Assembly: GCF_000264455.2 (NCBI RefSeq)
Contig: NC_017956.1
Location: 603,501-667,500, forward strand
Direction of reading: 5' to 3'
Origin: Tistrella mobilis KA081020-065
GTDB taxonomy: Bacteria > Pseudomonadota > Alphaproteobacteria > Tistrellales > Tistrellaceae
DNA length: 64,000 nt
Shown here: one piece after another, positions 26,113-64,000 of the stretch
How positions within the stretch are numbered: the stretch's first letter is position 1
Layout: each line of letters opens with the position of its first letter
Notes under the pieces: generated by a model
Told to the model about the DNA's origin: nothing
What the model saw: only the letters and a program-made list of their open reading frames with translations
The model's database searches: none
Program-made: the position numbers and the translations under genes

Positions 26113-26775
26113 TTATTTGTCAAATTCAAGTTCTAATTGTTTTTTATATTGGGCAGCTTGATAGTGCCAGATAAGTGAATCAAAATCACGCCGTGAAATA
26201 TCCAGTAAGTCCGCCGCAAAATTGAAGACGTCTCGGAGATAAGCGTAGCCGTTATTCTCCAGTCCCGCGAGTTCTGCGAAATTCTGAACGTGTCGATCCA
26301 CAGCGACACAATCCATGCCAACCAAGCATGCCATATAGTCAATGGTTTTGGGCCCTATACCGTGGATTTTCTGCAAACCTGAGCAAAAAGTCTCCTCCCG
26401 TAAAGACATTAGAAGTTCGTCAGTATTCTCAATTCGAGCATTTGATATAAAAGAAACTACATTCTCAAATCGGGATATTTTTTCATTATGCGTCCACTGT
26501 AGGAATTTTGAAGTTCCTTCATCCTGCATAATTTGTATTACCGAGCCAGTGGTCGATGCGTGAGGAAATCTTTCAAGTATGTAATGGATCCGGGGCCTTA
26601 TAATTTTCTCGTAACTTAGCCCTGCCTGAAGTGTAGCATCAGCTAGTACAGCGCCCATGTGGTGATAAATAGGTCTGCAGGGGGGCCGGTTCAGCATGAT
26701 GCCAGTCTCCACAGCGCGATCAGCAACGCGTCGTGCAGCATATAGTGCATCTATATACGTTAATTTTCGCGTCAT
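26113..26775 (-). CDS. Helix-hairpin-helix DNA-glycosylase-like protein
   Basis: 220 residues, last gene of a low-GC operon. The HhH motif HGIGPKTIDYMACLVGMDC has a lysine (K143) at the position of the Schiff-base Lys of endonuclease III/OGG enzymes, and AVDRHVQNFAEL supplies an aspartate (D160) at the place of the catalytic Asp. So both active-site residues of bifunctional glycosylases appear kept. The four-cysteine Fe-S loop of EndoIII/MutY is absent and the N-terminal half is unlike standard repair glycosylases. HhH/OGG-like proteins are known ancillary factors (Cap11) of type IV CBASS beside a QueC-like protein (Cap9), as here. I use ATG 26775 (GAGGAAA just upstream). Role in base excision or base transfer is inference. 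Confidence 0.75.
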   Translation of the reverse strand: MTRKLTYIDALYAARRVADRAVETGIMLNRPPCRPIYHHMGAVLADATLQAGLSYEKIIRPRIHYILERFPHASTTGSVIQIMQDEGTSKFLQWTHNEKISRFENVVSFISNARIENTDELLMSLREETFCSGLQKIHGIGPKTIDYMACLVGMDCVAVDRHVQNFAELAGLENNGYAYLRDVFNFAADLLDISRRDFDSLIWHYQAAQYKKQLELEFDK

Positions 26776-26788
26776 TTTCCTCAACCCA

Positions 26789-27409
26789 CTACACAGTGGA
26801 CGCTTCCGCTAAGGCTTTTAATCTCTCGACGCAGTTTGGACAAGCTCCGCACGGAAACGAGCTTGAGGCCTGACAAGAGAAAGTGCGACCGATTGGCACG
26901 TTAAGTTCCAGGGCTCGTCGTATAACATCAGCTTTAGTATTTTTTCGAAACGGTGCATGGAAACGCACAGCACCCACCCCCCTGGATAGCTCATCAAGAC
27001 CATTCATAAACTCGGTACTACAGTCTATTTCTTTGGCATGATTGCTATTGATAAAACCAGAATATACATCGAGAATTCCAAGAGTCTGTGCACGGGCCGC
27101 TGCCACGGCAAAGAATAGCATGGTCCGATATGGCAGGTAAAGATCATCATCTGATACTGACTCTCTCCAAAGATCTGCCTCGCAGATCATCCGAGAGCGT
27201 GATCCAATAAAAATGTCCGAAATATTTAGACGCTCAGGTCTTAAGACTTCTGGCGGCAGTAATTCATTAACATTTTTCCACTCTATCTCAACGCAATGCT
27301 GTCCATAGTCAAAAAATATTGGCTGAATTTTAATATCCATTTTGGTGAGTAGGTAGCACACAGTGGTTGAATCTAGGCCGCCCGAGACCATTACGACAGC
27401 TTTTTTCAT
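26789..27409 (-). CDS. QueC-like 7-cyano-7-deazaguanine synthase homologue
   Basis: 206 residues. PP-loop ATP pyrophosphatase motif VSGGLDSTT (8-16), a YLPYRTMLFFAVAAARAQ helix matching the QueC substrate segment, HAPFRKNTKADVIRRALELN, and a zinc site of C179, C187, C190 and C193 (SCQASSSFPCGACPNC). QueC turns 7-carboxy-7-deazaguanine into preQ0 with ATP and ammonia. This copy is low in GC, has no queuosine-pathway neighbour and shares an operon with glycosylase-like and deoxyribosyltransferase-like genes. Specialised QueC homologues occur in defence loci (Qat, type IV CBASS). Its start overlaps the stop of the fusion gene by four bases (ATGA). It could make an amide or adenylate of a related base; that is inference. 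Confidence 0.85.
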   Translation of the reverse strand: MKKAVVMVSGGLDSTTVCYLLTKMDIKIQPIFFDYGQHCVEIEWKNVNELLPPEVLRPERLNISDIFIGSRSRMICEADLWRESVSDDDLYLPYRTMLFFAVAAARAQTLGILDVYSGFINSNHAKEIDCSTEFMNGLDELSRGVGAVRFHAPFRKNTKADVIRRALELNVPIGRTFSCQASSSFPCGACPNCVERLKALAEASTV

Positions 27410-28737
27410 GGGTTGCCAGCCTGCAATTTTGATAGGACATCAAAAAGACCATTTAAGCATATATCGAGGTTGCTTGAATAAACGGTGCTCCCCACTATTA
27501 CCATAGTGTTGGCATTTTCTTGGAGCGGATCATAGGTAACTAGAGGCTTCTTATTTGCAATGGCCACTCCCATCTCGATAAGAGTACCCGGATCGCGTCC
27601 CAAAGGTAAGGCGAATACTACGGCACACTGACTGAGAATATTTAGGTCCTCGGCGTAAATTTTATGCATATGATGCTCCGCACTGTTAGGGTTGAGTTCT
27701 CCATTTTCTTGTATCGGCCTGCGAAGTAGGAAATTATGATAATTGAGGGCATTGATAACCTCCTCAATATACGTTCGATCTATGTATGAAAAATCGGGGG
27801 CTGCAAAGTATATTGGAAAAAGCCGTCGCACGTGCCAAGATAGATTTGTTCCTCCAAGATCACGCATTTGCTCGACTGTGAGTGCCAAGCTGCGTTGAAC
27901 ATCTCTCCGAAAATCGTCAGGGTATGTAGTTTGCGCATAGCATGTCGCAGCTCTCGCCGCTTTCCATGCTGCGCCGAATACGTCTGTGCTGATCAAGTAA
28001 GTAAATACAGCGGAATAAACATCACCTACGCCCACTGAATTGGTAGTTTGACCAAGAAGGGCTGGGACTTCGTCCCCTTGATCAGTACGGAGATCAAATA
28101 CCCGACTACCACCGCGATTTTCTTTCAAGAGAACAACATCCGGAGATAGGTGACGTAGGCAATTCAGCAGCGCCGATATATCATCCGATGCTCTTTCTAA
28201 AAAAAATCTGGAGGAAGTTGACGTAATAAGAGCAGATATCTGTCCTGAAAACGGGGAGAGAATATCAATATCGGGAATGTCGTAAGCGATATCTATGCTG
28301 ATCTGCGCCTTATCAGCTAATATATTCTTTAGGTCTCCGATGTTATATTTTCCTGGAAATATCAGGCAGGAACTATAATTTTCGAGATTTGCTTCGCCAT
28401 CATTTATTTCGCAATATTTCTCTTCTAGGAGAAGATCTTCATAGTTTTGGTCTCCAATTTCGAGAGGGTCCCTAATCACCATAACATTCGGGGCCCCCTT
28501 AACTTCTCCGAGCCATATGAAATTACTGCATTGAAGTTCTTGGAGGAAGTGGCGTGCTTGATCTACTAGATATCTTGGGCAGATCGCGGCTACTGCATAG
28601 CTGGCGTTGATAGCCCAGAGACCACGTGCTGCATGTATGATGCCACCAAGCCGTAACTTACTGCTTGTACCTGTCGTGGGTAGGGTAAAATCTATGTAAA
28701 TCTCGCCGATCAGTAGAAGTGCGGAATTTTCGCTCAT
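27406..28737 (-). CDS. PfkB-type kinase fused to a nucleoside 2-deoxyribosyltransferase-like domain
   Basis: 443 residues. N-terminal half (about 1-280) is ribokinase/PfkB-like: LIGEIYIDFTLP start, the glycine pair LRLGGIIHAARGL (about 28-40) and the catalytic anion-hole motif NSVGVGDVYSAVF with base D239. C-terminal half (about 305-440) resembles nucleoside 2-deoxyribosyltransferase: FPIYFAAPDFSYID, then DLNILSQCAVVFALPLG, RDPGTLIEMGVAIANKKP with D382 and E388, the latter at the place of the nucleophilic Glu. The pairing suggests phosphorylation and glycosidic-bond chemistry on one nucleoside. Its start overlaps the small upstream gene and its stop overlaps the QueC-like gene, each by ATGA, so the three are translationally coupled. 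Codon use is AT-rich compared with neighbours outside the island. Confidence 0.8.
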   Translation of the reverse strand: MSENSALLLIGEIYIDFTLPTTGTSSKLRLGGIIHAARGLWAINASYAVAAICPRYLVDQARHFLQELQCSNFIWLGEVKGAPNVMVIRDPLEIGDQNYEDLLLEEKYCEINDGEANLENYSSCLIFPGKYNIGDLKNILADKAQISIDIAYDIPDIDILSPFSGQISALITSTSSRFFLERASDDISALLNCLRHLSPDVVLLKENRGGSRVFDLRTDQGDEVPALLGQTTNSVGVGDVYSAVFTYLISTDVFGAAWKAARAATCYAQTTYPDDFRRDVQRSLALTVEQMRDLGGTNLSWHVRRLFPIYFAAPDFSYIDRTYIEEVINALNYHNFLLRRPIQENGELNPNSAEHHMHKIYAEDLNILSQCAVVFALPLGRDPGTLIEMGVAIANKKPLVTYDPLQENANTMVIVGSTVYSSNLDICLNGLFDVLSKLQAGNP

Positions 28738-29114
28738 GGTTCACCCGGGGCAAAATCAACGCTAATAGAAGTGAATGGAGTTGATGACGATGTTACGACT
28801 CGGCCCTTATAGGTGAAGCCCGCCACAATGCAATCCGCTATGTAGTTAAATTTTGTCGGTAAGGCGCCCACGGATTCTCCATTCGCGTCCACTGTGAATA
28901 GTCTCCGCTGATGTATTATGGATAAAATTGTATTCGTAGGCGGGGCGGATTTATGTTTTAAAAAATAGGAACAAAGCTCTACCTCTTCCAAAATGCAAGA
29001 GAATGCACGTCCACAACGGTCACCTCCGCTTGCGCCGCTACCAACTTCATTACCTGTTCCTTTCGATTGAGATCCTGGGTAGTCTGTTAACCTGCCAGAA
29101 CCGCTGCTACCCAT
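28734..29114 (-). CDS. Small protein with Gly/Ser-rich N-terminal tail
   Basis: 126 residues, first gene of the island operon. The first 32 residues form a flexible tail beginning MGSSGSGRLTDYPGS and rich in Gly/Ser. A compact domain follows: RCGRAFSCILEEVELCSYFL, SIIHQRRLFTVDANGESVGA, LPTKFNYIADCIVAGFTYKG, ending in SISVDFAPGEP. Five cysteines are spread through it. I do not know a function. The exposed N-terminal glycine after Met removal, and linkage to a QueC-like enzyme, make it a candidate substrate for N-terminal conjugation or a scaffold; this is inference. A strong AAAGGAGCG site precedes ATG 29114. Confidence 0.75.
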   Translation of the reverse strand: MGSSGSGRLTDYPGSQSKGTGNEVGSGASGGDRCGRAFSCILEEVELCSYFLKHKSAPPTNTILSIIHQRRLFTVDANGESVGALPTKFNYIADCIVAGFTYKGRVVTSSSTPFTSISVDFAPGEP

Positions 29115-35354: not shown

Positions 35355-36581
35355 ATGAAATCCGAGCTGCGAAAGGCCCGGTCGCGTGAACGTGTGGCAC
35401 GCATCCAGGCCCTGACGGCGGAGGACCCCGTCCTCGGGGCCCGCCTCAACCGCATCCTGACCCACGCCCGGAACGTCAGGGTCACCGAATACCACCTGAC
35501 CAACGCCTGCAACATCCGCTGCAAGGGCTGCTGGTTCTTCGAATACGGCCACGACACCGCCACCCGCGAGGTCAAGGATCTGGCGACGCTGGAGAGCTTC
35601 CTCATCGACGAGACGAAGCGCCGGCGGGTGAATGCTGCGCTGGTGATCGGCGGCGAGCCGACGCTGTTCCCGGACCGGCTGCGGCTGTTCGTGAAGCACC
35701 TGCGCTATGTGACGGTCTCGTCGAACGGTCTCAGGCGTCTGCCCTGGGACGGGTTCGAAGACGTGAACGTGATGCTGACCCTGTTCGGCGGCGGCAAGCT
35801 CGACGACGAGTTGCGCGCGATCAAGCCGAGCGGCCGGCAGTTCACCGGCCTGTTCGAGACGGTGCTCGAGAACTACCACCAGGATCCGCGGGCGAACTTC
35901 GTCTATGCGCTGACCGAGGACGGGATCGAATACATCGAGGACACCGTCCGGCGCATCGCCGAGAACGGCAACCGTCTGTCGTTCAACTTCTACAGCAAAT
36001 ACGGCACCGACGATCCGACCGCCCAGGCCCATCAGGATGCCCTGCTGGCCGAGGCGCTGAGGGTCAAGGCGCTCTATCCGGATGTGGTGCTGAGCCATCC
36101 CTATTATATCGAAGCAATGATCACCGGCCGGACCCATTGGGGCGCCGATTTCGGCTACGACGTCTGCCCGTCGATCAGCATCGATCATCCGGATCATGCC
36201 GAGCGGCTGGAGAACGGCAACCCGGTGCTGCCCTTCTTCAACACCTGGGCGGCGGACCTGAAGACGGTGAAATTCTGCTGCACCTCGGGCCATTGCGACG
36301 GCTGCCGTGACAGCCAGGCGGTGAATTCCTGGCTGATGGTCAGCATGGACCGCTTCCTGGACAGCCGCGAGATGCTGGAGACCTGGATCGGCATCGCCGA
36401 GGGCTACTGGAATCAGTTCATCTGGACGCCCTTCAACCCCTATGCCGCCGCCCATCAGACGATGAAGGCGGAGCGGGCCGGGCCGGTGGAAGAGGTCGAG
36501 GACGGTGGCCATGTGCCCGCGCGGGTGCCGCATGCACCGGCGGTCCCCGTCTCTGCTCAGTTCCAGGGCGTCGGACACTGA
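35355..36581 (+). CDS. Radical SAM protein with a C-terminal cysteine cluster
   Basis: 408 residues. The [4Fe-4S]-SAM motif is C52-x3-C56-x2-C59 (TNACNIRCKGCWFFEYG) and the SAM-binding GGEP follows at 99-102 (LVIGGEPTLF). A second cysteine group near 310 (KFCCTSGHCDGCRDS), with a further Cys in GYDVCPSIS, could hold an auxiliary cluster, as in SPASM/twitch enzymes. The C-terminal 40 residues are disordered and proline-rich. It opens a three-gene set with a hot-dog protein and a PaaA-like diiron protein. The product is unknown; it is not one of the biotin, lipoate, haem or hopanoid radical SAM families I know. Confidence 0.85.
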   Translation: MKSELRKARSRERVARIQALTAEDPVLGARLNRILTHARNVRVTEYHLTNACNIRCKGCWFFEYGHDTATREVKDLATLESFLIDETKRRRVNAALVIGGEPTLFPDRLRLFVKHLRYVTVSSNGLRRLPWDGFEDVNVMLTLFGGGKLDDELRAIKPSGRQFTGLFETVLENYHQDPRANFVYALTEDGIEYIEDTVRRIAENGNRLSFNFYSKYGTDDPTAQAHQDALLAEALRVKALYPDVVLSHPYYIEAMITGRTHWGADFGYDVCPSISIDHPDHAERLENGNPVLPFFNTWAADLKTVKFCCTSGHCDGCRDSQAVNSWLMVSMDRFLDSREMLETWIGIAEGYWNQFIWTPFNPYAAAHQTMKAERAGPVEEVEDGGHVPARVPHAPAVPVSAQFQGVGH

Positions 36582-36621
36582 TCGCCATCCTGCGGGTCGC
36601 ATCTCGCAGGAAGGAGGGGAG

Positions 36622-37062
36622 ATGACGGCTGCAGATCTGATCACGGGTCCGGAGGGGGGAACCCCCGACGCCGTGCTCACCCGCCTGAACGCGCTCGATG
36701 TGCTGGTCCATTCCGGCATCCGTGTGACCGCCGGCCCCGATGGGGCGGTGGTCGCGCGGGTGGCGGATCCGGGCCCCGAGCATGTCGAGCAGGGGGCGGC
36801 GGGACCGGTGATCAACGTGGTCATGATCATGGGGCTGGCCGATTGCGCCCTGGCCGTACCCGCCATTCTGGCGGCCGGCGGGGCGCGGTGCGCCACGCTC
36901 GAAAGCGCCATCAAGCTGGCGGAACCACTCAAGCCCGGCCCTTTCGAGGGACGGGGGCGGGTGGTCGGCCGGCAGGGCGACCTGTTCACGGTCGAGGTGA
37001 CGGTCGTCGATGATCAGGGCCGGATCGGTGCGACCGCCACGGGGCTGGTCGCCCGGATCTGA
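36622..37062 (+). CDS. PaaI-like hot-dog thioesterase
   Basis: 146 residues with a single hot-dog domain. VHSGIRVTAGPDGAVVARV, the helix VINVVMIMGLADCALAVPAI and the final strands FTVEVTVVDDQGRIGATATG are the pattern of PaaI/YigI-type acyl-CoA thioesterases. The usual HxxAxxxL start of the helix is altered (NVVMIMGLADCALA), with Asp in the catalytic area. AAGGAGG lies six bases before the ATG. It sits 40 bp after the radical SAM gene and 94 bp before the diiron gene, suggesting that the pathway runs on CoA thioesters. Confidence 0.82.
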   Translation: MTAADLITGPEGGTPDAVLTRLNALDVLVHSGIRVTAGPDGAVVARVADPGPEHVEQGAAGPVINVVMIMGLADCALAVPAILAAGGARCATLESAIKLAEPLKPGPFEGRGRVVGRQGDLFTVEVTVVDDQGRIGATATGLVARI

Positions 37063-37156
37063 TCCAACGAGCCGGCGGCCATGCACCGCCAGCCAATCGG
37101 CCTCAGGGGGTTACTGTGGCCATTTTCTCAATCACAGGTAAATCCGGAGACAGGAC

Positions 37157-37912
37157 ATGAACGAGTCCGTTGCAAGCGCCGCCGAAGCCCCCCTGATCGT
37201 CGAGGGGCCCGAGCAGTTCTACAAGATGCCGAAGGAATATCAGGATCTGGTCATCCATCAGCTTCGCGCCCATACCGAGGGCGAGCTGACCGGCGCGGAC
37301 GACTACACCCAGCTGCTCTATCCGATGGCGCCGGATCCGTATGAGCGCAAGATGTGCTGCGAGCGGGCCGCCGAAGAGGTCGACCATTTCATCCGCGGTG
37401 CCGAGGTGCTCAAGGATCTGGGCATCGACGTCTACTACATGATGGATCAGCACTTCCAGGAGCGGCAGCACTACCGCACCGATGCGGTGCGCAAGATCGA
37501 CAGCTGGGTGCAGCGCGGTCTGTTCTCGATGATCGGCGAGGGCGCCGTGCTCGCGATGATCGAGGAAATGGCCCAGTCCTCGTACAAGCCGATCGCCGAC
37601 ATGTGCATCTCGATCGTCATGGACGAGTACAACCACGTCGCCCAGGGCCGCCGCATCGTGAAGCAGTTCTGCGCGACGCCCGAGGGCCGCGCCCTGGTGC
37701 AGGCCGAGCTGGAAGGTGTGTGGTGGTCGACCATGCTCGACCTCTTCGGCCGCTCCGAGAGCGAGCGCTCGAAGCTCTACGTGAAGTGGGGCCTGCGCAA
37801 ATATACCAACGAGGAGGCCCGCCAGCGCTACTGCGCCCATATCGTGCCGCAGCTGCGTGAACTGGGCCTCGACGTGCCGGACGACTGGACCCGGGGCCGC
37901 AAGTTCCTCTGA
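37157..37912 (+). CDS. PaaA/PaaC-like ferritin-fold diiron protein
   Basis: 251 residues, related to the phenylacetyl-CoA epoxidase catalytic subunit family. Two ExxH pairs give a diiron site: E74 and H77 (AAEEVDHFI) and E157 and H160 (VMDEYNHVAQGRR), with E136/E137 nearby (AMIEEMAQSSYK). It is shorter than typical PaaA (over 300 residues), and no paaBCDE genes accompany it. So it probably works as a separate oxygenase or oxidase, perhaps on a CoA thioester given the adjacent hot-dog gene. GGAGACAGG lies before the ATG. A strong terminator follows at 37931-37962. Confidence 0.83.
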   Translation: MNESVASAAEAPLIVEGPEQFYKMPKEYQDLVIHQLRAHTEGELTGADDYTQLLYPMAPDPYERKMCCERAAEEVDHFIRGAEVLKDLGIDVYYMMDQHFQERQHYRTDAVRKIDSWVQRGLFSMIGEGAVLAMIEEMAQSSYKPIADMCISIVMDEYNHVAQGRRIVKQFCATPEGRALVQAELEGVWWSTMLDLFGRSESERSKLYVKWGLRKYTNEEARQRYCAHIVPQLRELGLDVPDDWTRGRKFL

Positions 37913-56959: not shown

Positions 56960-57560
56960 AGAACAGGATCTGGACCAGCCGGCCGTTTTCGGGGGCATCG
57001 CCGAAATCCACCCCGCTGGTGTGCCACAGCCAGGGGCGGAACAGGATCAGCCGGTTGAACTTCATCGGCAGAACCGTGATCTGCTCCCATTTCGACCGGT
57101 CGCGGCCGTCCTGCTTCAGCACGGTATCCAGCACGGCCTCGCGGGTCGGCAGGCCGAACTTCTCCTGCGCCTCCTGATCGCTCAACGGTGCCCTGTCGCT
57201 GCCGCTGGCCTTGTGGCGGAAGAATTCCGTCCCGCCCTGCGCATGCTCGTCGAGGCTGAGAAACACGATCCCGGCCCAGGCGCAGCCCGGGTCGATATGG
57301 ACCACCCCGGCGCGGGTATCCGAGGCAAAGGACAGCCGGCACTTGCCATGCGCCATATCGCGATTGCCGATCACCGGCTCGCGCAGGATGTAGCTGAACA
57401 TGCGGTCGCTGTCGGGCGGCAGCATGAACTGCTTCGAATTCCGGCCCGGATAATAGATCTCGGGTCCCGACAGATGCGGATAGTCGAGCTTGAGCGCCTG
57501 CGCCCGCACTTCGAGCGGGTTCTCGTAAAAGTCGTCGACGACGATCATCGACTGATGCAT
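56892..57560 (-). CDS. DUF6445-type protein, 2OG-Fe(II) oxygenase-like fold
   Basis: 222 residues. It begins SMIVVDDFYENPLEVRAQAL, as in DUF6445/prolyl-hydroxylase-like proteins, and has an iron-site pattern: H88-x-D90 (GVVHIDPGCAWAGIVFLSLD), a GGTEFFRH turn, then NRLILFRPWLWHTSG with distal H180. Together these are the HxD...H facial triad of cupin-fold oxygenases, so it may hydroxylate a peptide or small molecule. A Gly/Pro-rich tail follows. It is the last gene of a minus-strand run that starts with two leader-peptide-like genes, which could be its substrates. ATG 57560 is chosen because the domain starts at once. Confidence 0.72.
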   Translation of the reverse strand: MHQSMIVVDDFYENPLEVRAQALKLDYPHLSGPEIYYPGRNSKQFMLPPDSDRMFSYILREPVIGNRDMAHGKCRLSFASDTRAGVVHIDPGCAWAGIVFLSLDEHAQGGTEFFRHKASGSDRAPLSDQEAQEKFGLPTREAVLDTVLKQDGRDRSKWEQITVLPMKFNRLILFRPWLWHTSGVDFGDAPENGRLVQILFFKPGPTPAPAARPTVMPPSQRR

Positions 57561-57633
57561 GGCATGCGCTCCGCTGAAGCTTCCGGTTCGCGCGCATTCC
57601 ACCATGCCCGCGAACCGGCTTCAACCCGCTCGC

Positions 57634-57903
57634 TCAGCCGCCGAACGTCCAGCCGCCCGGCAGGATCATCGCGGCCGAGGCGGCGCCCCCGGCCACGCCT
57701 TCCAGGGCGGCGTCATCGAGTGCGGCATCATCCGTCCGGCGCCTCAGCCGGGGGATCAGGGCGCGCCAGTCGAATTTGAAGCCGCGGGCTTCGCCGGTTT
57801 CGCCCAGGATGCGGGCGGCCTCTTCCGGGGTCATGGCGGCGATCAGCGCTGCGGCGGTGGCCGGGTCGCTGGCAAGCGCCATCAGCTGCGAAGTCGAGAT
57901 CAT
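57634..57903 (-). CDS. Nif11-like leader peptide, candidate RiPP precursor A
   Basis: 89 residues. The leader (1-73) has ISTSQLMALASDPATAAALI, MTPEEAARILGETGEARGFK and the double-Gly end DDAALEGVAGG, as in Nif11/NHLP-type precursors whose leader is cut after GG by a C39-peptidase transporter. The remaining 16 residues, AASAAMILPGGWTFGG, would be the core. It lies in tandem with a paralogue 16 bp away. GGAG precedes ATG 57903. No transporter or modifying enzyme other than the DUF6445 protein is in the window. It could also be a non-RiPP small regulator. Confidence 0.65.
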   Translation of the reverse strand: MISTSQLMALASDPATAAALIAAMTPEEAARILGETGEARGFKFDWRALIPRLRRRTDDAALDDAALEGVAGGAASAAMILPGGWTFGG

Positions 57904-57919
57904 CGTCGGGCTCCGCCGC

Positions 57920-58198
57920 TCAGTTGCCGGAAATCATCCAGCCGCCACCCAGCGGCATATAGGCGCCGTTCACCGCGACACCGCCGGCCACGCCTTCCAG
58001 CGCCGCATCGTCGATCTCGGTATCTTCCGACCGGCGCTTGAGCCGGGGGATCAGCGAGCGCCAGTCGAATTTGAAGCCCTTGGCTTCACCGGCATCGCCC
58101 AGCACCTTGGCAGCCTCTTCGGCAGAGATGGCAGAGGCGAGTGCCCAGGCGACGGTCGGATCGGAGGTCAGCATCAGCAGGTGAGAGGTGGGCACCAT
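57920..58198 (-). CDS. Nif11-like leader peptide, candidate RiPP precursor B
   Basis: 92 residues and collinear with the peptide gene next to it. Leader segments match position by position: AEEAAKVLGDAGEAKGFKFD, WRSLIPRLKRRSEDTEIDDA, ALEGVAGG with GG at 72-73. The putative core is the last 19 residues, VAVNGAYMPLGGGWMISGN. It shares GGW with the core of peptide A, but is otherwise different, so leader conservation with core divergence is seen, the mark of precursor families. Start ATG 58198; a longer upstream frame is non-coding in look. Confidence 0.65.
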   Translation of the reverse strand: MVPTSHLLMLTSDPTVAWALASAISAEEAAKVLGDAGEAKGFKFDWRSLIPRLKRRSEDTEIDDAALEGVAGGVAVNGAYMPLGGGWMISGN

Positions 58199-58295
58199 GG
58201 CGGCGGCTCCATCGGCGGTGGCGGATCGTGAGGCAGAGCATGCGCCTGATCGCCGCTGCTGCCCAGCCTGTCCGTCGCCCGGCGTTGCCCGTCGT

Positions 58296-59468
58296 TTATT
58301 CTGCGGAGGTCTGATCCCGTCTGAAGGGCAGATGCTCGCCAAGCGCCTCGGCCTCGGCATCGACGGCGGCCCGTTCGCGGTCCAGGAAGTCCTTCACGGC
58401 ATGGGCAAGCCGCGGATCGGCCAGCCAGTGGGCCGAGCGGGTGGTGACGGGTTCGTAGCCGCGCAGCAGCTTGTGACCGCCCTGCGCGCCGGCTTCGACC
58501 CGCGCCAGGCCGCGGTCGATGGCGACCTCCATGGCCTGGTAGTAGCAGGTTTCGAAATGCAGGAAGGGCAGGTCGACCACCGCCCCCCAATTGCGGCCGT
58601 AGAGCGTGTCCTTGCCGACCAGGTTGAGCGCGCCGGCCACCGGGCGGTCGCCGTCATATGCCATGATCAGCACCACCCGGTCGGCCATGGTCTCGCCCAG
58701 CCGGTCGAAAAAGCTGCGGGTGAGATAGGCCTCGCCCCATTTGCGATCGACCGTGGCGCGGTAGAAGCGGTGGAAGGCATCCCAGGCCGCGGGGGTGATG
58801 TCCGCGCCCGACAGCGCCCGGAAGACCAGGCCGCTGTCGCGGACCTTCTCGCGCTCCTTGCGGATCATCTTGCGCTTGCGGGCGGACAGCGCCGCCAGGA
58901 AGTCGTCGAAACTGCCATAGCCGCGATTGTGCCAGTGGAACTGGACGTCATGCCGCGCCATGAAGCCCGCCATGGCGAGCGGGGCCACGTCTTCGGGGGC
59001 GAGGAAGGTCACATGCACGCCCGAGACGTCGAGGCTGCCCGCCACCGCCGCCAGCCCCTCGGCCAGGGTGCGGCGGATGGCGGGGGCATCGGGGCCGTTG
59101 CCGGCCAGCAGGCGCGGGCCAGGTACCGGCGTGAAGGGCACGGCGGCCTGGAGCTTGGGATAATAGGCGCCGCCGGCCTGTTCATAGGCGCGCGCCCAGG
59201 CCTGATCGAAGACGTATTCGCCCCAGGAATGAGCCTTGAGGTAGAGCGGCACCGCGCCGATCAGCCGCCCGTCGGCGGTGCTGAGCAGCAGATGACGCGG
59301 CAGCCAGCCGGTGCGCTCCGACACCGATCCCGAGGTTTCCAGGGCGTGCAGGAAGGCGTGCGACGGGAACGGGTTGTCCGGGCCGGCAAGGGCGTTCCAC
59401 GCCTCGGGGGCGATCTCTGCCATGCTTTCTGCGGTGGTCAGGGTCAGGCGCTGGTCCTGGTCGGTCAT
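58296..59468 (-). CDS. COG3146/DUF482-type acyltransferase
   Basis: 390 residues of the family often annotated as GNAT or peptidogalycan-like N-acyltransferases (FemAB superfamily). Markers: NPFPSHAFLHALETSGSVSE, HLLLSTADGRLIGAVPLYLK, SWGEYVFDQAWARAYEQAGG, YYPKLQAAVPFTPVPGPRLL and the C-terminal LHFETCYYQAMEVAIDRGLA with GAQGGHKLLRGYEPVTTRSA. The fold transfers an acyl or aminoacyl group; the real substrate is not established for the family. It is common in alphaproteobacteria, so its place in this biosynthetic-looking region may be chance. Confidence 0.85.
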   Translation of the reverse strand: MTDQDQRLTLTTAESMAEIAPEAWNALAGPDNPFPSHAFLHALETSGSVSERTGWLPRHLLLSTADGRLIGAVPLYLKAHSWGEYVFDQAWARAYEQAGGAYYPKLQAAVPFTPVPGPRLLAGNGPDAPAIRRTLAEGLAAVAGSLDVSGVHVTFLAPEDVAPLAMAGFMARHDVQFHWHNRGYGSFDDFLAALSARKRKMIRKEREKVRDSGLVFRALSGADITPAAWDAFHRFYRATVDRKWGEAYLTRSFFDRLGETMADRVVLIMAYDGDRPVAGALNLVGKDTLYGRNWGAVVDLPFLHFETCYYQAMEVAIDRGLARVEAGAQGGHKLLRGYEPVTTRSAHWLADPRLAHAVKDFLDRERAAVDAEAEALGEHLPFRRDQTSAE

Positions 59469-60280: not shown

Positions 60281-63200
60281 TCAGGCGGGGACCGGTTCGG
60301 GGGCTGGCGCCAGCGCCCGGACCAGATCCGGCATCATCCGGTCCGACAGCAGATCGAAATGGCCGGCATCCAGCCCGATCAGCCGGAAGCGGCCGGTGGT
60401 ATGGGCGGCCCAGCGTTCGGGACGGCGTTCTGCCGGGTCGCGCCGGGCGGTGATCATGGTGATGTCGCCGTGGATGACGCCGCGAGCCCGCCAGCCGGTG
60501 GTGGCCCGGGCATTGCGCAGCACCCGCGCCTTCAGCCGTGCCACCGCCGGCCGGCCGAGACCGGCGGCAAGGCGGCCCATGGCATCCGTACTGTCGGCCG
60601 CGGCCCGGGCGAATTCGCGGTCGAACTTGGCCGCGACCGCATCGGGATGCATCGGCACCGGCTCGGCCGAGGTGTCGAGCAGCACCAGATCGACCCGGCC
60701 GCCGGTCTCGGCCTCGATCAGCCGGGCGGCATCGAAGGCCGCCATGCCGCCCAGCGAATAGCCGATCAGCCGCCAGGGTCCGCGGGGTGCGATCTCCAGC
60801 ACCGTGCGGGCAAGATGGCGGGCGAATTCCGGCAGGCCCGCGGCCGGATGCGCCGGGAAGCGCAGCCCCCAGGCGGTCTGGCCGAGCCGCGCTGCAAGAT
60901 CGAGGAAGATGGCCGGCTCTCCGGCGACCGGCGGGATCAGGAAGACCGGCGCGGTTCGCCCCGTCCCTGGCAGCCCCGACGCTGGCTGCCCCGACGCTGG
61001 CCGGAACAGCGGCAGCGGCCCGTCATCCTCGTGATCGCCGGCGGCGATGCGGGCCTGATCCAGCGCCGCCGCCAGCAGCCGCGGCGTCGGGTTGAGGAAC
61101 AGCTGCTTCAGGTCCGTCTCGAGACCGGTCGCCGCGCGGATCTCGGCGGTGAGCCGGAGCGCGGTCAGCGAATGCCCGCCGGCCAGGAAGAAGTCGGTGG
61201 CGGCGTCCACGGCTACCCCGTCCAGTACCCGGGCGAAGGCGCCGGCGATGGCGGCTTCAAGGGCTGTCGCCGGGGCGGTGCGGACCGGCCCTTCGGCGAG
61301 GGCGGGCACCGGCAGGGCTGCGGCGTCCAGCTTGCCGTTGGGCCGGCGTGGCAGCTGGTCCAGGCGGGTGAGCACGGCGGGCACCATCCAGCCGGGCAGG
61401 CGCCCGGCGGCCCAGCTCCGCAGCTCGGCCGGGGAGACGCCCTCGCCGACATACCAGCCGGCCAGCCTTGGGCCGCGGGGGCCGGTGATGGCCCGGACGG
61501 CCGCCTCCTGCACGGCGGGATGGCCGGCCAGGCGTGCCGCGACCTCGCCCGGCTCCACCCGCGCACCATCGATCTTCACCTGATCATCCAGCCGGCCCAG
61601 ATAGAGGAAGACCCCGTCCGGCGTCAGCAGTGCCTCGTCACCGGTGCGGTAGAGTCGGGCCCCCGGGTTTGCCGGATCCTCGGGAAAGCGTTCGGCCGAC
61701 AGCTCCGGCCGGCCCAGATAGCCGCGGGCGAGCTGAACGCCGCCGATCACCAGCTCTCCGGGGCGGCCGACCGCGACTGGTTGCAGTGTGTCGGGATCAA
61801 CAACTAGAAGCTGCGTGTTCCAGACCGGCCGGCCGATCGGCACCACCGTCTCTTCGGGATCGGCATCATGGCGGGCGACGTCGATCGCGGCCTCTGTCGG
61901 CCCGTAGAGATTGACGATCCGGACACCCGGCCAGCGGGCCGCGACCCGGCGCACCGTTTCGGCCCTTAAGGCCTCGCCGCTGGTCACGATCAGCCGCAGC
62001 CGTGACAGGCGCTCGTCATCGCCGGCGGGCAGGCCGGCCAGCATGGCATCCAGGGCGCCGGGCACGAAATGCAGGCAGGCGACGCCCCGCGCCTCGATCA
62101 ACCGGGCCAGCGCCTGCGGGTGATGGGCGGTCACCGCCGGGCAGAGCACCATGGGCGCGCCCATGGCGGGGGGCATCAGCATCTCCCAGACCGAGACGTC
62201 GAAGCTGGCGGTCGTGCGGTGCAGGATCGGCTCGTGGTGCCGGTGGCCCAGGGCATGCCATTGCCAGACCAGCCGGTTGAGCAGGGCGGCATGGTCGACC
62301 ATCACCCCCTTCGGCCGCCCGGTGGTGCCGGAGGTATAGAGCAGATAGGCCAGATGGTCGGGGGCCGGATCCGATAGTGTCACTTCGGGCGCGTCGAGCG
62401 CACCCGCGTCATCCATCACCAGCAGCGGCCGGCTCGTCGCGATGGCAGCGAAATCCCGGCAGGTGATCACGGTGATCGCCTCGCCATCCGCGGCAATCTC
62501 CGTCAGCCGCGCCGCCGGCAGGGCGGGGTCGAGCGGCAGGAAAGCCGCCCCGGATTTGAGCACGCCCAGAACCGCCGCAATCATCGCGGGCCGCCGGTCG
62601 ATCATCACGCCCACGATCCGCCCGGGGCCGGCCCCGCGGGCGATCAGGGCCCGGGCGACCCTGTCGGACCAGAGATCGAGGGCCGCAAAGCTCGTGACTT
62701 CTCCCGCCGCGGTCACCAGGGCGGGATCGGCGGATCTGAGACGCGCGGTGTCGCGGATCAGCTCCACGACGCTCGCGGCGCCGCCGGCCCGCCCCGGCAG
62801 TGGCCGGGCCGTGTCGTTCACCCGCGCGATCAGGGCCCGTTCGGCCGCGGGCATGGGCGGGATCAGGTGTGCCAGCGGCGTGTCCGGGGTCGCCCGCTCC
62901 AGCGCCTCCAACATCGGCCCCAGCCGGTCCACCACCGGTGCGGCACCCAGCGGGTCCCAATGGGCAGCATCCAACGCCAGATCGAAATCGACCGGCCCCT
63001 CTCCGCCCAGATCGCGGACATGCAGGGCGAGGGCGTATTTGTCGCCCTCGTGACTGACCGGGTGGAGCAGGGTGCGGCAGCCGGCGAAGCCCTGTGTGGC
63101 CTGCCGGGTCTCGAAGGAGAACAGCACATCGCCGAGCATGGCATCGCCGGCGCCGGGCCTGCGGCCGAGTGCCTTGCCGATCGCGCCCATGGGCAGGCGC

Positions 63201-64000
63201 TGATGACGGAAGCCACGGCGCATTGCCGCCTGAACCGCGGCTGCGGCCTCCCCAAGGGAGGTGGCAGGGTCGATCTGCAGGCCAAGCGGCATCAGCCGCA
63301 CGAAGGGGGCGATGGCCGCACGTTCGGCCGCGGTCATCCGGTTGCGGACCGGGGTGGCGACGATCATCGCCGCCCGGCCGGTCAATTCGTGGACCAGGGT
63401 CGCGAACAGGGTGAGCAGCAGGGCCGGCAGGGGAACGCCGGCCGCAGCGGCGACCGCCTCGATCCGGGCAAAGGCCGCCCGGTCGCGGGTGATCCGGGCC
63501 TTGAGCGACGGCCCGAAGGGGGGGCGGCGCAGAAAGGCCCGGGCGGGCAGATCGCCCAGCTCGCGGGCCCAGAAGGCGCTGTCTTCGGCCGCCTTCGGGC
63601 TCTGGATCCAGGCATGTTCGGCGGCCGGATCGGGCAGCGGTGCCGGGTCGGGCAGCGGCGTCCCGCCGGCCAGGATCGTGTCATAGGCCCGGCGGAAACG
63701 ATCGAAGAGCGCGAGCCCGGCCCAGCCGTCGACGATCAGATGATGGCAGCGGAACAGAATGGTCCGCCGGTCCGGTGCCGCCTTCAGGATCCACATGTCG
63801 TGCATGACCCGGCCGTCCTCGGGACGGATCGGCTCGGCCCAGAGGGCGGCTGCCCGGGCGGCGACGCTCATCCCGGGTTCGGCGTCGGCGCTGAAATCTT
63901 CCAGCCGGAACGGGATGGGACCTGCGTCGTCGGGCGGGGCCACCGCCAGCATCGGCTGATGATCCCGCAGTACCAGGCGGGCCCGCATGGCCGCCACGTC
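60281..64000 (-). CDS. Nonribosomal peptide synthetase, C-A-PCP-TE module (5' end outside window)
   Basis: The gene runs off the right edge; about 1,239 residues are visible. A condensation domain begins just inside the edge, with HHLIVDG at about nt 63725-63745. The adenylation domain shows LLYTSGTTGRPKGVMVDH, FDVSVWEMLMPP, HFVPGALDAML, LIVTSGEALRAE, NLYGPTEAAIDVA and PRRPNGKLDAAAL. Reading the pocket residues by alignment to EntF gives D-V-W-H-V-S-L-I-D, very close to serine codes. PCP: FFLAGGHSLTALRL. Thioesterase: LIPPVAGEPAIFLDLAARLG, GYSLGGMAAFDAARL with nucleophilic Ser, and GLDAGHFDLL with His. The order matches EntF-like termination modules, so a serine-containing product such as a siderophore is possible. 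Confidence 0.92.
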   Translation of the reverse strand, partial: DVAAMRARLVLRDHQPMLAVAPPDDAGPIPFRLEDFSADAEPGMSVAARAAALWAEPIRPEDGRVMHDMWILKAAPDRRTILFRCHHLIVDGWAGLALFDRFRRAYDTILAGGTPLPDPAPLPDPAAEHAWIQSPKAAEDSAFWARELGDLPARAFLRRPPFGPSLKARITRDRAAFARIEAVAAAAGVPLPALLLTLFATLVHELTGRAAMIVATPVRNRMTAAERAAIAPFVRLMPLGLQIDPATSLGEAAAAVQAAMRRGFRHQRLPMGAIGKALGRRPGAGDAMLGDVLFSFETRQATQGFAGCRTLLHPVSHEGDKYALALHVRDLGGEGPVDFDLALDAAHWDPLGAAPVVDRLGPMLEALERATPDTPLAHLIPPMPAAERALIARVNDTARPLPGRAGGAASVVELIRDTARLRSADPALVTAAGEVTSFAALDLWSDRVARALIARGAGPGRIVGVMIDRRPAMIAAVLGVLKSGAAFLPLDPALPAARLTEIAADGEAITVITCRDFAAIATSRPLLVMDDAGALDAPEVTLSDPAPDHLAYLLYTSGTTGRPKGVMVDHAALLNRLVWQWHALGHRHHEPILHRTTASFDVSVWEMLMPPAMGAPMVLCPAVTAHHPQALARLIEARGVACLHFVPGALDAMLAGLPAGDDERLSRLRLIVTSGEALRAETVRRVAARWPGVRIVNLYGPTEAAIDVARHDADPEETVVPIGRPVWNTQLLVVDPDTLQPVAVGRPGELVIGGVQLARGYLGRPELSAERFPEDPANPGARLYRTGDEALLTPDGVFLYLGRLDDQVKIDGARVEPGEVAARLAGHPAVQEAAVRAITGPRGPRLAGWYVGEGVSPAELRSWAAGRLPGWMVPAVLTRLDQLPRRPNGKLDAAALPVPALAEGPVRTAPATALEAAIAGAFARVLDGVAVDAATDFFLAGGHSLTALRLTAEIRAATGLETDLKQLFLNPTPRLLAAALDQARIAAGDHEDDGPLPLFRPASGQPASGLPGTGRTAPVFLIPPVAGEPAIFLDLAARLGQTAWGLRFPAHPAAGLPEFARHLARTVLEIAPRGPWRLIGYSLGGMAAFDAARLIEAETGGRVDLVLLDTSAEPVPMHPDAVAAKFDREFARAAADSTDAMGRLAAGLGRPAVARLKARVLRNARATTGWRARGVIHGDITMITARRDPAERRPERWAAHTTGRFRLIGLDAGHFDLLSDRMMPDLVRALAPAPEPVPA

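Follow-up and report, generated by a model that had tools for sequence, protein, structure and literature searches.

Two small adjacent genes, referred to here as A and B, lie on the minus strand of the window (the whole stretch of 64,000 nucleotides analysed). They encode peptides with similar long leaders and different short tails, and are followed by the gene of a predicted oxygenase. This arrangement raised the question of whether A and B are precursors of ribosomally synthesized peptides and, if so, by which proteins they would be modified, cleaved and exported.

Layout and conservation of genes A and B

The coordinates and open reading frames were re-derived (Table 1). They confirmed the description in the first-pass annotation of two adjacent minus-strand paralogues with collinear leaders of 73 residues, both ending in DDAALEGVAGG and followed by tails of 16 and 19 residues. 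The leaders aligned without gaps and were identical at 47 of the 73 positions. The paralogy of A and B was well beyond chance (E 2.7e-30 in a search of their own genome, which comprises a main contig of 3.92 Mb and four further contigs). A GGAG ribosome-binding site preceded both starts, and four co-directional genes followed one another on the minus strand in the order FemAB_like, B, A and DUF6445.

Table 1. Features of the A/B locus, with positions numbered from the first letter of the window.
Feature	Position	Strand	Parts and evidence
DUF6445 protein, predicted 2OG-Fe(II) oxygenase, 222 aa	56892..57560	-	PF20043, E 1.2e-15
RNA hairpin	57573..57625	-	17 bp helix with a bulge and a short inner stem; lies in the gap from A to the DUF6445 gene, up to the ribosome-binding site of the latter
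Precursor A, 89 aa	57634..57903	-	Leader 57903-57685; core 57684-57637, AASAAMILPGGWTFGG, 16 residues; GGAG at 57911-57914
Precursor B, 92 aa	57920..58198	-	Leader 58198-57980; core 57979-57923, VAVNGAYMPLGGGWMISGN, 19 residues; GGAG at 58207-58210
FemAB_like GNAT-fold protein, upstream neighbour	58296..59468	-	PF04339, 526 bits

The order B-A-DUF6445 was the same in three Tistrella-group genomes. Since Tistrella was the sole genus of its order in the genome sample, gene order was compared within the genus. B was conserved in G001 and G002, and the genes and cores of both A and B were kept across the three genomes, with mainly synonymous change. When the genome was compared with G002, the leader of A carried 12 synonymous and 3 non-synonymous codon changes and its core 4 synonymous and 0 non-synonymous ones; no non-synonymous change was seen in this core in the three genomes. 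Purifying selection acts on both genes in the three Tistrella-group genomes.

Leader family and cores

The designation of A and B as Nif11-like precursor peptides was upheld by their alignment to TIGR03798 (leader_Nif11) up to the Gly-Gly, by a family profile and by relatives linked to LanM or to an exporter. TIGR03798 matched A with an E of 0.007 (16.6 bits, model positions 13-68 of 68), B with 0.072 (13.4 bits, positions 16-68 of 68) and a third paralogue of the same genome (C1:3540396-3540683) with 18.3 bits over positions 1-68 of 68. These scores (13-18 bits) were all under the curated cut-off of 32.3 bits, and the Gly-Gly of the three peptides always fell on the last model position, 68. 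The LanM-linked relatives reached 23.5-32.4 bits, one of them just above the cut-off. The Pfam matches of A and B to DUF3253 and RNA12 were weak and below the cut-off, and were disregarded.

A profile search of the PDB placed 9zn4 (the MppE Nif11 leader, the only Nif11-leader structure seen there) first of 177,635 sequences, at E 0.14. With the AlphaFold model of B (pLDDT 76), Foldseek returned 9zn4 at rank 3 (E 0.82), and VIA gave it a Z of 4.8 over 64 residues, which was the highest of the chains compared and under the safe level of the tool. None of these structure matches was significant alone; jointly, they point toward a Nif11-type leader.

The family profile was built from six sequences (A, B, their orthologues and the third paralogue) and searched in 372 genomes of the class. 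It matched tandem Nif11 precursors adjoining LanM in two other alphaproteobacteria (G136 and G317), orphan precursors in G136 as well, and a tandem set behind genes resembling an NHLM exporter in G108. A wider profile recovered, at 7.5e-12, the LanM-linked precursor of Tistrella (L197:9120-9401), whose core is SPYCIFTKGCYCIFTK. The leader of this precursor ends in VAGAG and not in Gly-Gly, which means that the cleavage motif varies within the genome. Its relative in G002 (L198) also ends in VAGAG, and the relatives in G136 and G317, with similar cores, end in VSGG.

Several other hits were set aside. Matches in G116 and several further profile matches looked like chance frames, the G116 reading frame reading as an unrelated protein. 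Class-wide matches from single-protein searches (E 0.001-0.01) lay mostly inside long open frames and were superseded by the profile search. No match to B was found in the plasmid collection, and protein matches on C2 of the same genome were weak (E 0.76-0.85). Additionally, three NHLP-type leader peptides were observed on contig C3 of the same genome (L025:9366-10435), two of them by TIGR03793 and the third by reading of its sequence. An orphan Nif11-type precursor of another alphaproteobacterium (L188:9932-10219) carried a Cys-free core of 13 residues ending in FFVPDWFA.

One leader profile thus covered quite different cores in Tistrella, G136, G317 and G108, the conserved leader and variable core of a precursor family, and the cores of A and B by themselves still aligned. 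The earlier statement that these two tails share only a GGW was too strong, because they had 8 identities over 16 aligned residues, with a score equalled in 94 of 20,000 shuffles (p about 0.005). Furthermore, tails and leaders were equally conserved between orthologues. Together with the alignable paralogue tails and the lack of a maturase or exporter linked to A and B, this would suit peptides that act whole, as regulatory or structural small proteins with a Nif11 domain, and not as precursors. We regard such a role as quite improbable, since the Gly-Gly marks the boundary between leader and tail, the leader of the family carries different cores in its relatives, these relatives are linked to LanM or to an exporter, and the genome encodes two NHLM exporters. 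A and B are new orphan members of the known Nif11-type precursor family.

Neither core contains Cys, as lanthipeptide cores do, which rules out lanthionine rings; the action of LanM in trans on A and B was rejected for this reason. Lys and Arg are likewise lacking in both core sequences.

The predicted oxygenase gene and the upstream genes

The first-pass annotation had taken the nearest enzyme, a DUF6445 oxygenase, as a hint of a new class of modification. The product of this gene is plausibly a 2OG-Fe(II) oxygenase. Residues H88, D90, H180 and R194 were invariant in 45 sequences, and the HxD...H facial triad, the 2OG-binding Arg and the double-stranded beta-helix of such enzymes were all found. 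The AlphaFold model had a pLDDT of 90, and its best PDB matches were 2OG oxygenases (E down to 3.7e-6), including GriE, OGFOD1 and prolyl hydroxylases. The start at 57560 was inferred from a GGAG at 57569-57572 and from the relatives, which begin there. The hairpin upstream of this start was unusually stable: the 86-nt stretch had an MFE of -47 kcal/mol (z -4.6; none of 200 shuffles as good), and its stem was found in G002 too. It may lower the expression of the DUF6445 gene or protect the transcript.

Recognition of the leader by this enzyme, followed by hydroxylation of the cores before export (at a Pro, Leu or Trp close to the GGW, for instance), would be in keeping with several observations. 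The gene is co-directional, lies 73 bp downstream of A and keeps this order in three genomes; its conserved triad and Arg go with a fold that resembles those of amino-acid and prolyl hydroxylases; and the hairpin sits between A and the enzyme gene. In addition, femAB often adjoins clpA in other alphaproteobacteria, such genes not lying between them, so B-A-DUF6445 may be a single inserted block. However, the relatives of the oxygenase (38-60% identity) are widespread in alpha- and gammaproteobacteria in varied contexts, and in G136 the Nif11-type leaders and DUF6445 are on separate contigs. Co-occurrence with such leaders in other genomes was tested at 80 named loci and at those from a sample of 385 genomes of the class. 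A profile was run against about 9,300 ORFs from 136 loci, roughly 95 of which were DUF6445 loci outside Tistrella. At none of the latter did it detect a Nif11-type leader beside DUF6445, in neighbourhoods that came from simple ORF calls, which may miss small genes, and with several short flanks (1.5 kb or contig end).

Hence, a new class of modification by DUF6445 is unsupported, and its role as a dedicated RiPP enzyme was rejected. Its link to the A and B peptides is adjacency only; an oxygenase beside a leader peptide is no evidence for a new RiPP class before co-occurrence is tested. Most likely, the oxygenase gene is an independent gene that lies downstream of A by chance, and hydroxylation of the cores has a smaller chance, which we rate as unlikely. 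That A, B and DUF6445 form a lineage-specific RiPP system, with 2OG hydroxylation of Cys-free Gly/Trp cores on Nif11 leaders, is correspondingly doubtful. If true, hydroxylation by DUF6445 would be a class of modification without a description in the literature searched, which also contained no mention of DUF6445.

Matches to the upstream FemAB_like gene occurred in 140 of 240 alphaproteobacterial genomes, almost always as one copy per genome and mostly at 45-64% identity; the gene was often flanked there by RidA or ClpA. In the genome of A and B, RidA is separated from FemAB by an NRPS/halogenase block, and FemAB from ClpA by B-A-DUF6445. FemAB_like is a class-wide gene and probably not part of the A/B system. 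The minus-strand biosynthetic block (window 60281-64000, continuing in L029 to about 5.5 kb beyond the window) comprises genes for an SDR, an AMP ligase, a CmlS-type FAD halogenase, a serine hydrolase, a single-module NRPS (C-A-T-TE), an acyl carrier protein and a small membrane protein. In several other alphaproteobacteria, RidA adjoins FemAB. The genes that separate the block from RidA include those for an M48 peptidase and a DUF898 protein.

The NRPS, the acyl carrier protein, the halogenase, the AMP ligase and the FemAB-like GNAT might act on the peptides and give a hybrid of the goadvionin or selidamide kind, acylated or halogenated. The halogenase, ligase, carrier protein, NRPS and GNAT fold are all upstream on the same strand, and GNATs lipidate some Nif11-leader peptides (PMC13060382). 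Nevertheless, we consider such a product very improbable. The GNAT is class-wide, no Nif11 leader was found beside the FemAB-like relatives examined, and the cores offer no Lys or Arg for side-chain acylation. Moreover, since FemAB is often next to RidA elsewhere, the NRPS block appears to have been inserted separately between the two. The FemAB-like GNAT as a peptide acyltransferase was therefore rejected as the main reading.

Elsewhere in the window, a low-GC stretch (26113-29114; 0.44 in 26-28 kb vs about 0.69) encodes a QueC-like protein and a protein with a nucleoside 2-deoxyribosyltransferase domain, and is possibly a foreign island of nucleotide metabolism or defence.

Probable processing in trans and comparison with known systems

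The absence of the usual maturases, also put forward in the first-pass annotation, held for the neighbourhood but not for the genome. No LanM, YcaO or C39 gene was found in the A/B neighbourhood and no exporter, peptidase or immunity gene in the cluster, so the locus has no linked maturase (LanM, YcaO or radical SAM) or NHLM exporter. Elsewhere in the genome, a single LanM (C1:2688 kb), a single YcaO and three C39-peptidase domains are encoded. Within the window itself, a weak match to radical SAM was seen 21 kb from A and B. This match, just under the Pfam cut-off, was observed at 35355-37912 in a row with a thioesterase-fold protein and a PaaA/PaaC-like protein. The proposed search for C39-peptidase transporters did find two NHLM export systems, not in the cluster but about 1 Mb away on the same chromosome (TIGR03794, TIGR03796 and TIGR03797). 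Two of the three C39 domains sit in these sets, each with an HlyD and two ABC proteins; the C39 exporter genes lie at C1:1681 kb and C1:1621 kb. The first set was above all three NCBIfam cut-offs; in the second, HlyD passed and both ABC proteins were under the cut-off (850.8 vs 853.3 and 567.6 vs 709.4 bits).

Since NHLM peptidase/exporter systems are encoded elsewhere in the genome and none nearby, cleavage and export in trans are the best reading. We consider it fairly probable that A and B are adjacent Nif11-type (N11P) precursors, cleaved by a C39 peptidase at the Gly-Gly and exported in trans by NHLM, to yield two short peptides that are unmodified or slightly modified. A and B would probably be co-transcribed. 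The C39 domain of an NHLM-type ABC exporter, working in trans, would recognize their leader, which is helical and has the acidic end DDAALEGVAGG. Cutting after the Gly-Gly by this domain would release two short Cys-free peptides containing glycine and Trp, which probably work as a matched pair in antimicrobial action or signalling. Neither lanthionine nor azole chemistry would be needed, and any modification would be minor. On this reading, the Nif11 leader family also includes Cys-free orphan pairs that have no adjoining maturase, and NHLM exporters in trans are their likely processing route.

When compared with known systems, the downstream enzyme is a clear member of the DUF6445 (PF20043) proteins, which elsewhere occur without Nif11 leaders. 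Class IIb two-peptide bacteriocins are unmodified tandem peptides with Gly-Gly leaders, glycine-containing cores and no maturation enzymes. A and B resemble them in the tandem arrangement, the Gly-Gly leaders, the glycine-containing cores and the lack of adjoining maturation enzymes, but the known class IIb bacteriocins have shorter leaders and longer cores, and A and B differ in the lack of an immunity or transporter gene in the cluster and in their alphaproteobacterial host. The cores of prochlorosins are varied. Prochlorosins share the Nif11 leader with A and B and show that a single promiscuous enzyme can serve Nif11 precursors (PMC10783134); unlike A and B, which are unable to form lanthionines, they have lanthionine cores.

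N11P peptides (TIGR03798; Haft, Basu and Mitchell 2010), for which a link to NHLM has been described (PMC2887384), share with A and B the Gly-Gly end, the short suffix (23 residues in N11P) and the presence of paralogues within one genome. Their leader has 69 residues vs 73 in A and B, and their motif is ELSDEELEAVAGG vs DDAALEGVAGG. A and B differ from them in scoring under the curated cut-off, in having no linked cyclodehydratase, LanM or exporter, and in their Cys-free cores. Finally, the LanM-linked Nif11 precursors of Tistrella, G136 and G317, with SPYCIFTKGCYCIFTK and similar cores, differ from A and B in their Cys-containing cores and adjoining LanM, and the Tistrella one in its VAGAG vs VAGG end. 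They belong to the same leader family by profile and carry DDxALxxV near the leader end, and one of them shares its genome with A and B.
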